Positions 35,640 through 40,644 of a stretch of DNA of 64,000 nt are shown here, piece by piece (within the stretch, counting starts at the first letter, position 1; every line of letters begins with the position of its first letter). The stretch covers positions 558,001-622,000 of the forward strand of contig NZ_JAGJEC010000002.1 of NCBI RefSeq assembly GCF_018100785.1, written 5' to 3'. Below the pieces are notes generated by a model. It saw only the letters and a list, made by a program, of their open reading frames with translations. It was not told the origin of the DNA and searched no databases. Position numbers and translations under genes: made by a program. The stretch comes from Maribacter sp. MMG018 (GTDB lineage: Bacteria; Bacteroidota; Bacteroidia; Flavobacteriales; Flavobacteriaceae).

Positions 35640-35685
35640 TTTTGTGTGTTGGGGGGATTGTTGATTAATCGTCCAACACACAAAA
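35640..35685. repeat. 13-bp perfect inverted repeat between convergent genes
   Basis: TTTTGTGTGTTGG (35640-35652) and its exact complement (35673-35685) enclose a 20-base loop. The stop codon of the minus-strand gene lies in the loop and its last codons form one arm. It sits where glyA and that gene converge, so it may end or protect both messages, but no T-run follows on either strand. Confidence 0.6.
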
Positions 35686-36333
35686 GTCTAATTTTGCAGG
35701 GATGAATTTGTTGTTTTGAACATCAAATATAAGACCATCTAAATCTGACTCTAGGTAAATACCCCAATATTTATAATAGGTAGTCTGTGTTGTTTCAGAT
35801 TGAAGATTTTGTGGTATCGTAGAAGAGGCAATAGTTTGAATATTGTCTTCAAATACAGGAATGAATATTTCTTCGGGCTTTTCTGTAAGCCCCATTGACA
35901 ATGAAACATAACGTTTTCCAATTTCACTAATTATAGTGTCAAAGTTCTCGATGATACTATTGGTGTAAACTTTTTTGATGGTTATAGTAGTATCATTTAA
36001 GAATAAGGTCAATTCTTGAATATCTATAGGTATTCTATTCGAATTGGAATTTACCAGATTGGTAAAACTTTTTTTTAAGGGGGAAACATCTATATCGTTT
36101 GATCCCCATAGCCCTTTGTTGAAGTGGCCTAAAATTTCCAATAGATTAAAAGAGCACTGCATTTCCAATGCGATGGCTATTTCATCTTCCCTTGGGCTCC
36201 AGTTTCTTAATGTCACTTTTGAAAAGAAACTAAGCTCCAATGACTTAATAAATTCTTCTATACCTAAAATTCCAGAATTGGTGTTCAGTTTGGTAATCTG
36301 AATTTGCGAATAACTGTGTGAGGGTAAAGGCAT
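35665..36333 (-). CDS. Protein of unknown function
   Basis: The 222-residue protein has no signal peptide, membrane segment or motif I recognise. It appears to alternate helices and strands, with a Trp/acidic stretch (LRNWSPREDEIAIALEMQCSF, partly quoted) and a C-terminal beta region with YYKYWGIYLESDLDGLIFD. It follows the NarL regulator on the same strand after 134 bases, so cotranscription is possible but not clear. Its 3' end is inside a strong inverted repeat. Confidence 0.6.
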   Translation of the reverse strand: MPLPSHSYSQIQITKLNTNSGILGIEEFIKSLELSFFSKVTLRNWSPREDEIAIALEMQCSFNLLEILGHFNKGLWGSNDIDVSPLKKSFTNLVNSNSNRIPIDIQELTLFLNDTTITIKKVYTNSIIENFDTIISEIGKRYVSLSMGLTEKPEEIFIPVFEDNIQTIASSTIPQNLQSETTQTTYYKYWGIYLESDLDGLIFDVQNNKFIPAKLDFCVLDD

Positions 36334-36467: not shown

Positions 36468-37136
36468 TCATAAAAAACCTCTTTTTTTTGCTTCTTGAAT
36501 TAAAGCGAGGTCATTTCCGTTTTTTACACCAAAGATCGCTTTTAATTGTCTTTTTCTGGCTTCGACCGTCGTATTTGCGGCGGCGATCAACGGAGCTATG
36601 TCTCTAGTATTGGTTCCTAATGATAGGTAGTATAATATTTTTTGGTCTTGCTCATCAATATTAATGGTACTGGCCATTCTTCTTCTAACGGCACTAAGGG
36701 CACTTGCCGTGTAGTATGGAGGTCTATTATAGACCGTTTCAACCATCGCTTTCAACGACATTTCGTCAATTTCGGATTTCACCATGTATCCATCTGGGTT
36801 TACGGTCTTGAAAATATTGTTTATTCTATAACTATCGCTGAAAGACGACATAAAAACAACTTTGGAATCTGGCACTAATTCTCTTGCCAATTTTCCGAGA
36901 TCAACTCCGGTTCTTGGGTCTTTTGCTTCCGCAGGAAATAATTGAATGTCCAATAAAATAATATCGAAAGGAAGTGTTTTTGAAGAGAACTCTATTTTTT
37001 CCTTCCCTTTATCGTAACTCTTGGCAATTTCTACTTTAACGTTAAAATTCTCGAAATCAGCATCTTCTAGGATGTATTTGTATCCTAAAGTAGTCATCTC
37101 ATGATCATCTATTGCCAAAATCCTCACCGTTTTCAT
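36468..37136 (-). CDS. NarL/LuxR-type response regulator
   Basis: The 222-residue regulator has a receiver domain with D10/D11, phospho-acceptor D63 (ILLDIQLFP) and K120. The C-terminal helix-turn-helix at about 155-215 is a LuxR-type domain with LSLGTNTRDIAPLI and VEARKRQLKAIFGV. The receiver has a longer-than-usual insertion after the phosphorylation site (PAEAKDPRTG). It starts 24 bases after the TPR histidine kinase stop codon, so the pair is cotranscribed and almost certainly cognate. DNA targets are unknown; the repeat-protein gene next to the kinase is one candidate. Confidence 0.9.
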   Translation of the reverse strand: MKTVRILAIDDHEMTTLGYKYILEDADFENFNVKVEIAKSYDKGKEKIEFSSKTLPFDIILLDIQLFPAEAKDPRTGVDLGKLARELVPDSKVVFMSSFSDSYRINNIFKTVNPDGYMVKSEIDEMSLKAMVETVYNRPPYYTASALSAVRRRMASTINIDEQDQKILYYLSLGTNTRDIAPLIAAANTTVEARKRQLKAIFGVKNGNDLALIQEAKKRGFL

Positions 37137-37160: not shown

Positions 37161-39272
37161 TTAAACGTCCTGAAGTTGGTTCTTAGTATTGCTTTCCGTA
37201 TAAAATAACGGAATTTCTAAAGTGACCTTGGTTCCTTTGTTCGGTGCGGTATCTATAAACCACTTTCCGTTTAGTTTTTCGATTCTAGAACTTAAGTTTC
37301 TCATTCCAATGCCCTTGCGTTCTTTATCGAGGATAAAACCTTTTCCATCATCACCCATTTCAACTGAAAATAACTCTTCGGACCGTTCGAAGTTAACAAA
37401 GAAATTAGAACAACCCGAATGTTTAATGGCATTTTGTAATGTTTCTTGGATCATTCTATAGACATTGATCTTTATTTCTCCTTTTAAACTATCAAAATCT
37501 TCATCCTCGTCGTAATTAAAGGTCGTGTTTATTTCGGTGTTCTCCTTGGCGGAATTAAGAAGCGATTCTATAGAGTTTACAAAGTTGTTTATCTTTTGAT
37601 ATGCCGAATGGCTTAGTTCGTGAGAAATAGCTCTTACCTCTCCTTCTATTGTTTTAAGGGCCTTAATGGCTTCGGCCCGAGCCTCTATAGCCTCTGGGCC
37701 CGTTTTTTTGTTAAGGCCGGTAAGTACCATTCTTGCCCCTAGCATTTTACCTAAAATACCGTCGTGTAATTCTTCTGAAATACGTTTTTGTTCCATTCTC
37801 TTTACATCGTCTACCTTTTGCTTCTGGGTAAGCATTAGGTTAAAGATTTCTTGGTTATTTGCGTGCTGTTGTTGTAGAAAAAGTAATTTTTGATTTTTTG
37901 CTCGTTGTTGTATGATAACGTACACGGCTAACCCCAATAAGAAAAAGCCAATGGCGATACCTGTCCACATTTGTTTTTGTCGGGCCAGAATTGTTTTTTG
38001 TTCTTCCAGTAGTTCGTTTTCTGCGATAAATTCGTCCGTTTCAAAACGGATACGTGCAAATTTATTTCTGGCCTGCCTTTCTTCTTTCTGTAGACTATCG
38101 TCTAAGGATATGTACTTTTGAAAATATTTAGAAGCGTTTTTATGGTCTACATTGGCCAAAAAGTCATAAGTGTCCAACAACCGCTCGTTGTTAGAGCTTT
38201 CGTTTGCCAGCTTCAGGGCGGTTTTTGCATTGACTATTGCTTTTGCGGTATCCTCTTTATAAAGGTAGTATTCGGCTAAAGTGTAATACGAACCTGCTAA
38301 ACTTCTGGTTTCGTTTAGGCTGTCTTTTAGGTAAATAGATTCTTGAATGGTTTGATAGACGCCAATAGTATCATCTAATTTAAGTCTACTTAAAGCCAGA
38401 TTCAGTAAAATTTTTGAGTATAAGCCAGGGTTTTTGTTTTTTAAATCATTCGTTTCTATGGTTTGCTTAAAATATTTGCTGGCTTCCGAATAGTTTCCCA
38501 TATCCAAATAGGCAATCGCTTTATTGTTCAGATAGCTTGTGGTATATATTTCAGGGTTTTCTGTTTTTTGTAAATAGCTAAATGCTTCATCATAATATTT
38601 TAAAGCTCTGCCGTATTCTCCAATAGCTACGGATATAATGGCCAAATTGTTGTAGCATCGATAAAGTTCTTTGTTTTTGTTTAAAGGCTTTAACCTTTCA
38701 ATAGCGGCTATGGTAGATGCCTCGCTTCCGATATAATCTCTTATGTCCGATTGTTCCACGGCCATGTTAAAGAACATTCTGCCAGAATAATAATAATTAC
38801 CTTTGGCTTCGTAGATTTTCTGGGCCTCTGAAAAACTGTAATAGGCACTATCCTTTACCAAGTTTTCACGGTAATAAGTACCTCTGTCCCAATGAGCCTC
38901 CGCTAAAATAGTAGAGTCTTTGGTTTTTGCGGCAAGTTGAATGGTTTCTTTGTTTATTTCTTTGAATAATTTTTTGTTGTTCGTGTCAAAACTGTAATAA
39001 GATAGTTTAGAAAGTAATCGCAATTTTAAACTATCCTCTTCCAAGTTTTTAAGAAGTCCATGAGCTTGTGAAAGTGCCTTTATTCTGCTTTCGTGCGAAA
39101 TAGACTTGCTGTTGCTGACAACAATTAAACTGTCTACTTCAGTCCTGATCTTATTGGACAATGTAGAATTCTGATGGGTCTGTCCTTGACCGAAATGGAA
39201 AAATATAATTACAAGTACGGTAAAAAATAATTTAGGCAATGTATGGTATTTTAATTCGATTTTGTAATTCAA
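37161..39272 (-). CDS. Histidine kinase with exported TPR sensor domain
   Basis: The 703-residue protein starts with a signal-like helix (about 12-30, ending GQG-Q), then at least five TPR units (about 80-395), a coiled segment, one clear membrane helix at about 436-455, and a HisKA_3/NarX-type kinase core with phospho-accepting His503 (ISEELHDGILGK) and ATP-binding GDDGKGF and GIGMRNLSSRIEKLNG. This layout places the TPR domain in the periplasm. TPRs usually bind peptides or proteins, so a polypeptide ligand is plausible. The partner regulator is directly downstream and the repeat-protein gene directly upstream. Confidence 0.9.
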   Translation of the reverse strand: MNYKIELKYHTLPKLFFTVLVIIFFHFGQGQTHQNSTLSNKIRTEVDSLIVVSNSKSISHESRIKALSQAHGLLKNLEEDSLKLRLLSKLSYYSFDTNNKKLFKEINKETIQLAAKTKDSTILAEAHWDRGTYYRENLVKDSAYYSFSEAQKIYEAKGNYYYSGRMFFNMAVEQSDIRDYIGSEASTIAAIERLKPLNKNKELYRCYNNLAIISVAIGEYGRALKYYDEAFSYLQKTENPEIYTTSYLNNKAIAYLDMGNYSEASKYFKQTIETNDLKNKNPGLYSKILLNLALSRLKLDDTIGVYQTIQESIYLKDSLNETRSLAGSYYTLAEYYLYKEDTAKAIVNAKTALKLANESSNNERLLDTYDFLANVDHKNASKYFQKYISLDDSLQKEERQARNKFARIRFETDEFIAENELLEEQKTILARQKQMWTGIAIGFFLLGLAVYVIIQQRAKNQKLLFLQQQHANNQEIFNLMLTQKQKVDDVKRMEQKRISEELHDGILGKMLGARMVLTGLNKKTGPEAIEARAEAIKALKTIEGEVRAISHELSHSAYQKINNFVNSIESLLNSAKENTEINTTFNYDEDEDFDSLKGEIKINVYRMIQETLQNAIKHSGCSNFFVNFERSEELFSVEMGDDGKGFILDKERKGIGMRNLSSRIEKLNGKWFIDTAPNKGTKVTLEIPLFYTESNTKNQLQDV

Positions 39273-39342: not shown

Positions 39343-39774
39343 TTAGACAATTCCAACTTTTGGAGGGTCTCTTCTATCAGATGGGTTGTCACATTGATCG
39401 CAGGCCAATGTGGAGTTTTCATTTTTCATGAATTTGAACTCATCGGCAACATTCTCATTTATATTCATTGCGATTCCGCCAAGTTTTGGAGGGTCTCTTC
39501 TATCAGATGGGTTGTCGCATTGGTCGCAGGCCAATGTGGAGTTTTCATTTTTCATGAATTTGAACTCGTCGGCCGCATTGTCACTTATGTTCATTGCGAT
39601 TCCGCCAAGTTTTGGAGGGTCTCTTCTATCAGATGGGTTATCGCATTGATCACAGGCCAATTTAGTGTTTACATTTTTTATGAATTTGAACTCATCGGCA
39701 GTATTTTGAACAACATAAGTTGTTAAACCTAATGCCATTAATGCTACAGCTAAAATACTTGTCAATTTTTTCAT
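39343..39774 (-). CDS. Small exported protein with three 42-residue tandem repeats
   Basis: The 143-residue product has a signal peptide (MKKLTSILAVALMALGL) and then only repeats. Units begin at A26, A68 and A110 with a period of exactly 42 residues (126 bp); the third stops after 34. Each unit contains ADEFKF, a Lys/Asn-rich spacer, LACDQCDNPSDRRDPPK and then LGGIAMNI. The only cysteines are the three CDQC pairs. I recognise no family. It may be cut into repeated peptides or bind a metal; both are guesses. A partly matching promoter (TTACTTTG, 39822-39815) and its own terminator suggest a separate, perhaps abundant, message. It lies between a LytTR regulator and the TPR histidine kinase. Confidence 0.85.
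   Translation of the reverse strand: MKKLTSILAVALMALGLTTYVVQNTADEFKFIKNVNTKLACDQCDNPSDRRDPPKLGGIAMNISDNAADEFKFMKNENSTLACDQCDNPSDRRDPPKLGGIAMNINENVADEFKFMKNENSTLACDQCDNPSDRRDPPKVGIV
39346..39699 (-). repeat. Tandem repeat, 126-bp period, 2.8 copies, coding
   Basis: Copies are at 39699-39574, 39573-39448 and 39447-39346 in reading order. Copies two and three differ at only a few bases over their first 100. In the CDQCDN core the three copies use different codons at five positions, all silent. The linker between units (ISDNA against INENV) is freer. Confidence 0.92.
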
Positions 39775-39912
39775 TTTAAATAGTTTTTAGTTAGGGAACT
39801 GATTATTATACTGCCAAAGTAATAAGCTTAAGCAAGGGATAAAATGAAACTAAAGCACACTTAGTGAATGGTTTAAATCTGTGAGTATTTGACCGAGTTT
39901 TACGAGAATTCG

Positions 39913-40644
39913 TTAATTCAATGAAGAAATGCTGTTTTTGGAGAGTGTTTGTTTAAGTTGGTTTACTCTTTCTTTGTAGGATTTTGAAAAGGGTAGCTTT
40001 TTGTCAACTTTTTTTAATGAGCAGATAGATTTTCCGAAATTGATCCTAGAAACGTAATTTGTGTTAACGATGTAGCTTTGATGTATTCTCACGAAATTCT
40101 TTGGAAGCTGTTTTTCGAAAGTTTTTAATGTTTTATATGCATTGGCTACAGAACCGTCTTTCATAAAAAACTCTGTGGTATTGTTATCTGCCTGTAGGTA
40201 AAGTATGTCTTCCGTGTTTAGGTAATGAAAATCGTTATAGGATTTTAAGCAAATAGTTTGCGGTTCTTTTTCTTTTGGAAATTTTCTTTTGAGCTTTAAA
40301 AGCGATTTTCTAACATCAAATTCATTAAATGGTTGTAACCAATAATCGAAAAAACCATTTTTAATGGCATCATAGGCGTGGTTTTTTGTCTTAGAAATAC
40401 CTATGATCAGTGGTAGGTCTGTAATATATTGGTGTAATTCTATTACTTTCTGAAACAGAAGTTGTGCATTGTGGTCTAAATTAACAAAAACAATATCTGG
40501 AGAGAATTTGAGTATAAGGTTGAGGCCATCATCAGGTGTTTCAGAAATACCTGAACAATTAAAATCCCCATATTCGGCCAAAAAAGTGCTCAATTGCAAA
40601 TTTGACACGGCATCGGGGTCGATGATGGTGTATGAATATTCCAA
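39913..40644 (-). CDS. LytTR-type DNA-binding regulator with degenerate receiver
   Basis: The 243-residue protein has a receiver-like N-terminal domain (1-120) and a LytTR DNA-binding domain at about 140-240 (YLQADNNTTEFFMKDGS; FVRIHQSYIVNTNYVSRI, both typical). In the receiver, the position of the phospho-acceptor aspartate is Asn55 (IVFVNLD), the conserved lysine is Gln104 (YWLQPF), and the acidic pair is broken by a proline (D9-P-D11). It is therefore unlikely to be controlled by normal phosphorylation. No sensor kinase of the LytS type is adjacent. The repeat-protein gene follows after 138 bases on the same strand and is the natural candidate target. Confidence 0.9.
   Translation of the reverse strand: MEYSYTIIDPDAVSNLQLSTFLAEYGDFNCSGISETPDDGLNLILKFSPDIVFVNLDHNAQLLFQKVIELHQYITDLPLIIGISKTKNHAYDAIKNGFFDYWLQPFNEFDVRKSLLKLKRKFPKEKEPQTICLKSYNDFHYLNTEDILYLQADNNTTEFFMKDGSVANAYKTLKTFEKQLPKNFVRIHQSYIVNTNYVSRINFGKSICSLKKVDKKLPFSKSYKERVNQLKQTLSKNSISSLN

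Follow-up and report, generated by a model that had tools for sequence, protein, structure and literature searches.

Quorum sensing by peptides has been described mostly in Gram-positive bacteria. The closest described systems are those of the RRNPP type, whose signature is given in one account as a small propeptide of 10–100 residues with Sec export, an adjacent receptor gene, peptide-binding TPRs and an intracellular receptor of 250–500 residues (PMC10075063). Here we analyze a stretch of 64,000 nucleotides from Maribacter sp. MMG018 (Flavobacteriaceae; contig NZ_JAGJEC010000002.1, positions 558,001 to 622,000), in the following referred to as the window. It harbors a gene for a small repeat protein with a leader-like N-terminus, which is flanked by the genes of a LytTR regulator and of a sensor histidine kinase with TPRs. 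We consider it about 55% probable that this gene encodes a precursor for a lineage-specific peptide that serves the kinase next to it as a ligand.

The likeness to RRNPP systems (Rap-Phr, NprR-NprX, PlcR-PapR) comprises a small candidate propeptide gene with an export-like leader that adjoins a putative TPR receptor gene, a variable C-terminal module and the presence of identical tandem copies, which amount to up to 14 in the family described here and up to eight in the RRNPP precursors of a published report (PMC11343458). Both also have a TPR receptor fold, predicted in the present case, and conserved Asn residues. The candidate receptor of the window is, however, a 703-residue membrane histidine kinase with a probably periplasmic TPR sensor, whereas RRNPP receptors are intracellular regulators. 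Moreover, the RRNPP systems belong to Bacillota, whereas the cluster investigated here is found in Bacteroidota, has many lipoprotein-like precursors and contains LytTR and NarL-type genes. The best reading is that of a system analogous to RRNPP quorum sensing and not of a further member.

Other described systems share single aspects of this arrangement. AgrBDCA and ComABCDE likewise unite a peptide precursor, a sensor kinase and a LytTR regulator in one cluster, and their operators are direct repeats about 21 bp apart. They differ in that no AgrB-like protease/transporter or ABC exporter was recognized near the window gene, that the kinase is HisKA_3-like with a TPR sensor in place of their polytopic sensors, and that the LytTR receiver lacks the phospho-acceptor Asp in most loci. 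The coupling of a small lipoprotein to an envelope kinase is reminiscent of NlpE-Cpx and RcsF-Rcs, but there the lipoproteins are folded and conserved, in contrast to the variable repeats encoded beside the kinase. The yeast alpha-factor, too, is made as an exported precursor, in which identical units are repeated and the spacers are less strictly kept. Its receptor is a eukaryotic G-protein-coupled receptor; no dibasic site is common to all arrays of the family reported here.

Conservation of the gene cluster in Flavobacteriaceae

A search of 36 Maribacter genomes at E <= 1 retrieved a precursor match in 34 and the true gene in 33 of them. The match in G025 (E 0.22), which lies within a 512-residue frame, was rejected. 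The gene was not found in G025, G027 and G028, two of which are 64–68% complete and one 92%. Thirty of the 33 loci were read, and in all of them the precursor is located between the LytTR gene and the gene of the TPR sensor histidine kinase. The initial annotation had proposed a repeat protein and a count of repeats per homologue; this count showed a single unit of 55–60 residues in 28 of the 30 loci and three units only in the window and in M. thermophilus. Repetition is hence not the defining feature of the family but a lineage-specific elaboration.

The same gene order extends beyond the genus. Searched with a profile built from the 28 proteins with one unit, 133 of the 397 genomes of the family gave matches at E <= 0.1, many of them weak and within long frames. 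For the 27 best non-genus precursor loci (E <= 6.7e-6), the LytTR gene is always present upstream and the kinase gene is present downstream in 26; the contig of the remaining locus (L036) ends first. The LytTR protein itself retrieved matches at E <= 1e-50 in 108 of the 397 genomes. We investigated 80 LytTR loci, corresponding to the 81 top-ranked of 113 matches minus a second LytTR copy in G067; this set includes three genus genomes and overlaps the 27-locus set. A small exported-looking open reading frame (ORF) is located between the LytTR and kinase genes in 78 of the 80 loci, and a TPR kinase follows the precursor place in 78, the exceptions being L080 (contig end) and L137, where neither small ORF nor kinase is present. 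At the order level, the LytTR orthologue was detected in 14 of 296 genomes, all of the same family. In L132, the other locus without an intact small ORF, the precursor is split by a frame change, which reflects either a sequencing error or real decay.

Precursors with one module comprise 46–61 residues with a leader-like N-terminus, and a Cys at the place of a lipobox (residues 17–24) is present in 65 of 78 and missing in 13, among them the Maribacter type. Among the closest loci, L062-L127 (n = 66; E <= 2.3e-84 for LytTR), a simple pattern found a TDG or TDD string in 27 tails, and 55 tails have an Arg within the last 15 residues.

Units alike within a cell and tails diverging between species

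The protein of the window starts with a signal-peptide-like stretch (residues 1–25, MKKLTSILAVALMALGLTTYVVQNT; judged by eye), and its three units, the last one shortened, each contain ADEFKF and CDQCDNPSDRRDPPK, exactly as annotated; the strand had been left out and is the minus strand (Table 1). The arrangement is not chance, because it recurs in relatives. The 16-residue slice LACDQCDNPSDRRDPP is a single protein sequence encoded by three different DNA sequences, with eight synonymous and no nonsynonymous differences in the sum of the three pairwise unit comparisons. Equivalent comparisons gave four synonymous and eight nonsynonymous differences for the ADEFKF linker, and the spacer between units (two copies) showed two and three, respectively. 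Both previous claims, a constant protein core with differing silent codons and a less fixed linker, are therefore corroborated.

Tandem arrays of the C-terminal module, examples of which are LACDQCDNPSDRRDPPK in the window and TDGDDVRQDDREDG in another precursor, occur in 11 genus labels, including four arrays (L084, L086, L124, L127) that were omitted from the statistics as imperfect, two-copy or frame-shifted. The remaining 14 arrays represent nine genus labels and have up to 14 copies. Examples are STDGDDVPTDTRDS (L072), CDDCAHDSDDRET (L087), CDDCSHDKDEREA (L088) and TDGDDTPTDDRQS (L105) as well as 34-residue units in 14 copies (L103) and 28-residue units in six (L111). Four labels (g1, g2, g19, g203) contain single-unit species together with array species, so that array expansion, judged without a tree, seems to recur across lineages. 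The long array of TDGEDSKTDNRGDAIAF units in L124 contains shifts of the reading frame, again due to sequencing error or real decay.

Neighboring units of the 14 arrays, compared without a filter for protein identity, differ at a proportion of 0.331 of synonymous (pS) and 0.036 of nonsynonymous sites (pN; pN/pS 0.107). For this comparison, three arrays were aligned on their conserved core, and L126 was given the period of its best protein self-match. The result documents that selection holds the repeated unit, as initially proposed. The array cores alone have a pS of 0.306 and a pN of 0.006, and all pairs of units in the cores add up to 739 synonymous versus 51 nonsynonymous differences; both results are biased towards identity by the choice of units by protein pattern.

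Between Maribacter species, the C-terminal tail is the fastest-changing part of the precursor. The mean pairwise identity of 28 sequences is 0.34 in the tail, 0.68 in the leader and 0.69 in the middle. The corresponding pN/pS values are 0.62, 0.11 and 0.08 in 41 close pairs, whose choice for similar leader and middle lowers the figures for these parts, and 0.79, 0.38 and 0.23 over all 378 pairs. Quick change between species combined with near-identity within one cell is a prediction of a lineage-specific ligand and not of absent constraint.

The adjacent kinase and its proposed response regulator

The kinase of the window exceeds the Pfam cut-offs for TPR and HATPase_c, and HisKA_3 scores 23.8 bits at a cut-off of 24. 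Its TPR domain is probably periplasmic, since a signal-like segment stands at the N-terminus and a hydrophobic one follows the TPR part. Among 62 orthologues, the mean pairwise identity is 0.28–0.48 in the sensor, 0.64–0.67 at residues 460–560 and 0.43–0.47 in the ATPase part, so that the variability of the sensor is only slightly above that of the ATPase part. The AlphaFold2 model of the sensor is a TPR superhelix (predicted local distance difference test score 93.8), whose best solved fold matches are the TPR domains of LGN, many of them with bound partner peptides; NprR and Rap rank 9 and 16 in the same search. Asp or Asn residues occupy matching places of successive TPR helices, with conservation values of 0.96 (D102), 0.53 (N142), 0.88 (N181), 0.98 (N222), 0.96 (N223) and 0.75 (N264). 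Ladders of this kind hold the backbone of bound peptides in OGT. For Rap, the main chain of the pheromone is described as anchored by an Asn that is conserved (PMC11343458). The phospho-acceptor D63 of the probable NarL-type response regulator encoded next to the kinase is kept in all 77 rows, with the window counted twice.

Once LytTR is accounted for, the distances of the tails track those of the kinase sensor (partial rank r 0.30, p 0.003; 26 sequences after L004 and L022 were dropped from 28; no correction for phylogeny). At the end of the kinase signal segment (A4 column 2), at least 90% of 57 rows have a Cys, as if the sensor kinase itself were lipid-anchored in many orthologues; the window kinase has Gln.

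Regulator, upstream repeats and terminator-like hairpin

The half-site T(T/A)CTC..A.A recurs three times in steps of 21 bp ahead of the precursor, and the genome matches the triple pattern exactly only once, at positions 39863-39908. LytTR proteins bind direct repeats of about this spacing. Averaged over 95 loci, of which 93 are distinct, the score of the best triple is 17.6, compared with 13.7 in shuffles, and 77% of the loci exceed the 95th percentile of the shuffled scores. The spacing 21,21 was best in 77 of the 95 loci among spacings of 21–23, and when shifts of 12–44 were allowed, 21 was the best self-match in about 44 loci, with about six for the runner-up shift. A search for further regulon members by this pattern with two mismatches was uninformative (35 matches versus 111 in a reversed control), and the strict Bacteroidota promoter pattern was present in none of 66 loci, which share only a TA..TTTaG-like element. 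The phospho-acceptor position of the LytTR receiver is Asn in 63 and Asp in five of 81 rows (window counted twice). The regulator is thus probably outside ordinary phosphorylation control, because Asn replaces the acceptor in most orthologues. Two LytTR genes with 52% and 66% identity to that of the window stand in tandem ahead of the L087 array precursor (G067:C1:3236942-3238785).

The separate terminator of the initial annotation was recovered as a hairpin (Table 1), although a simple scan with a loop limit of 8 listed none on the minus strand at the locus. In 78 loci, the 75 nucleotides after the precursor have a mean folding z of -4.1 (88% below -2), compared with -0.23 for the last 75 nucleotides of the gene itself as a control. 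A hairpin followed by a T-rich stretch is present in 73 of the 78 loci according to a lenient rule that had no control of its own. No Rfam element reached its gathering score in the window between positions 36000 and 43000.

Table 1. Coordinates of the precursor cluster (positions refer to the window) and of a second kinase locus in the same genome
Feature	Position	Strand	Remarks
Precursor gene, 143 residues	39774-39343	minus	ATG at 39774; leader-like residues 1 to ~25 and three tandem units
Unit 1	39574..39699	minus	residues 26-67, 42 residues, core CDQCDNPSDRRDPPK
Unit 2	39448..39573	minus	residues 68-109, 42 residues
Unit 3	39346..39447	minus	residues 110-143, 34 residues, shortened
Three direct half-sites	39857..39908	minus	TTCTCGTAAA, TACTCACAGA, CACTAAGTGT; 21-bp steps
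LytTR regulator, proposed control of precursor	39913..40644	minus	Pfam LytTR, E 6.9e-21
Terminator-like hairpin after precursor	39320-39289	minus	folding z = -3.1; kinase gene next
Sensor histidine kinase, 703 residues, proposed receptor	37161..39272	minus	signal-like N-terminus, TPR sensor, hydrophobic segment, HisKA_3-like, HATPase_c
NarL-type response regulator (probable), proposed kinase output	36468..37136	minus	Pfam and NCBIfam matches below cut-offs
Second TPR-kinase locus (L144)	G000:C1:1222602-1224449		small ORF at L144:1114-1335

A protein of 222 residues (35665-36333) that has no Pfam match at E <= 1 is located beside the cluster in the window and also in M. thermophilus.

A second class of putative precursor and kinase genes

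Three other TPR-kinase matches are present in the genome of Maribacter sp. MMG018. One of them (27% identity; L144) directly follows a small lipoprotein-like ORF that ends in ATEGDDHDPPIPPPEDIPDA with an ATEGDD tail. A search with this kinase in 247 genomes of the phylum retrieved 42 matches in 25 genomes, the own one included, and 29 loci of this class were fetched out of the 41 matches in other genomes. A small exported-looking ORF is located upstream in 19 of the 29 according to a preset filter and inspection, and in 23 on a looser look; two have a short acidic ORF without a clear leader. Such peptides replace the lipoprotein just upstream of the kinase in L166 and L169, e.g., one ending in MKKDVYLKNEILKLQPLGDEAVSSGDGDESNGSGEGG in L166, and are reminiscent of double-glycine leader peptides.

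Proposed mechanism and its weighing

We propose that the gene encodes an exported precursor for a short, Asp-rich peptide, which the TPR domain of the adjacent histidine kinase would sense as its ligand. Leader and spacer would serve export, and the C-terminal module (LACDQCDNPSDRRDPPK here, TDGDDVxxDxRD elsewhere) would be the recognized part, with each lineage having its own version. In some species, 2 to 14 copies of the module per precursor may increase the amount of product or its valency. Transcription of the precursor is probably under the control of the upstream LytTR protein via the three sites spaced by 21 bp, the terminator-like hairpin would allow the amounts of precursor and kinase to differ and thereby permit an excess of the precursor, and the kinase would hand the signal to the adjacent NarL-type regulator. 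The initial annotation had suggested a secreted peptide precursor; the arrays, the purifying selection on their units, the fast change between species and the linkage to a TPR kinase with a predicted sensor similar to peptide receptors favor this proposal, and its processing and secretion are conceivable steps. A more far-reaching version is that of a Bacteroidota peptide pheromone family acting as a true intercellular signal read by exported TPR histidine kinases, with an own acidic peptide dialect per genus and often per species, several precursor–kinase pairs per genome and repeated evolution into multi-copy polyproteins; we advance it only tentatively.

Several observations weigh against these proposals. 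The frequent lipobox Cys fits poorly with a freely diffusing signal, since a lipoprotein-type ligand may stay anchored unless it is cut, and no dedicated protease or exporter was recognized among the ORFs around the gene in the window and in M. thermophilus. The TPR fold match is common, with 225 chains at E <= 0.001. The association of Cys-type tails with kinase columns does not exceed the LytTR control, the fraction of columns with z>4 being 0.024 in the sensor, 0.029 in the kinase and 0.042 in LytTR. The distance correlation of tail and sensor is linkage and not tail-specific, because leader and middle taken together track the sensor likewise (0.40), as does the tail the transmembrane and following part of the kinase (0.41). 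Among 12 LytTR loci of greater distance, only L139 scores well for the 21-bp repeats, which the other 11 do not evidently have. Finally, no small upstream ORF of this kind accompanies two of the three other TPR kinases of the own genome or four of the 29 loci of the second class. The strength at which we hold the ligand and pheromone proposals reflects the possible anchoring, the negative column association, the unspecific distance covariation and the predicted nature of binding and release.

Alternative explanations

A possible anchoring could mean that the precursor is a membrane-bound sentinel, i.e., a lipoprotein that stays in its own envelope, touches the TPR kinase and reports lipoprotein traffic or envelope state, with the repeats providing valency rather than peptides. 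RcsF and NlpE act as such reporters, and both the prevalent lipobox Cys and the near-constant pairing with an envelope kinase are in agreement with this scenario. It does not predict, however, that tails change fast between species yet remain alike within arrays, and anchoring is not conserved, as the Cys-free Maribacter type illustrates; we consider the sentinel possible but rather doubtful. The variability of the tails would also suit a secreted effector, an antimicrobial or adhesive peptide expressed under the adjacent regulators, because variable secreted tails and tandem copies are known from bacteriocin-like and adhesive peptides and regulator genes do adjoin the precursor. This is improbable given that the ORF keeps its place beside the kinase gene, that no bacteriocin family match exceeds its cut-off (those to the JUQZ family and YxzE are weak), and that modification enzymes, transporters and immunity genes were not recognized around the window or M. 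thermophilus gene, as judged from the ORFs and without a dedicated search.

The CxxC motif of the units raises the question of zinc knuckles in a metal- or disulfide-binding surface protein, which had been the alternative of the initial annotation. The 28 single-unit members of the genus all have both Cys, the window array exceeds the Pfam cut-off of PyrI_C (32.7 versus 23.4 bits) and the L087 array that of Zn_Ribbon_YjdM (34.6 versus 30.8 bits). However, these matches come only from CxxC-repeating arrays and point to different families. PyrI_C and zinc-ribbon proteins have a four-Cys zinc site within one domain. We rejected this membership, because each unit has two Cys and PyrI_C is not among the matches of the 28 single-unit members, which reach no better than E 0.048 in Pfam and 0.012 in NCBIfam, below the cut-offs as judged from these E-values. 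CxxC is present in 16 of the 66 tails of the closest loci and absent in 50, where T, S or D are common at the Cys places. A metal- or disulfide-binding function is therefore disfavored as very unlikely, even though Maribacter keeps the motif. The initial annotation would have been refuted by single-unit homologues of known function; homologues with one unit are the rule, yet none of those scanned matches a known family above its cut-off. Of ten further proteins (seven one-module, three arrays), only the L087 array passes a cut-off, and the nearest NCBIfam match of the seven is a PG1828-family lipoprotein leader (L071, 21.6 bits, cut-off 50). A resemblance to NVEALA-type Bacteroidota peptides was dismissed in the absence of such a match in the Pfam and NCBIfam scans and of a paper in the literature search. 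The low-complexity acidic tails and the quick shifts in copy number might lastly suggest a weakly constrained disordered protein with repeats that arose by slippage and have little meaning. This is hardly credible in view of strongly diverged silent sites and retained amino acids, as documented by the biased core counts and by the pN/pS of neighboring units, which were compared without that choice by protein pattern.

Significance

We know of no established peptide pheromone in Bacteroidota, and none was found in the open-license literature searched. Passages of one survey credit Bacteroidetes with no more than components of known quorum-sensing pathways (PMC8895600). The gene family described here represents a concrete and testable candidate, in which ligand, receptor, regulator and output are encoded side by side. 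It is also a natural experiment in ligand evolution, with tails that diverge between species and copies that stay alike within one array. Flavobacteriaceae matter in marine polysaccharide turnover.
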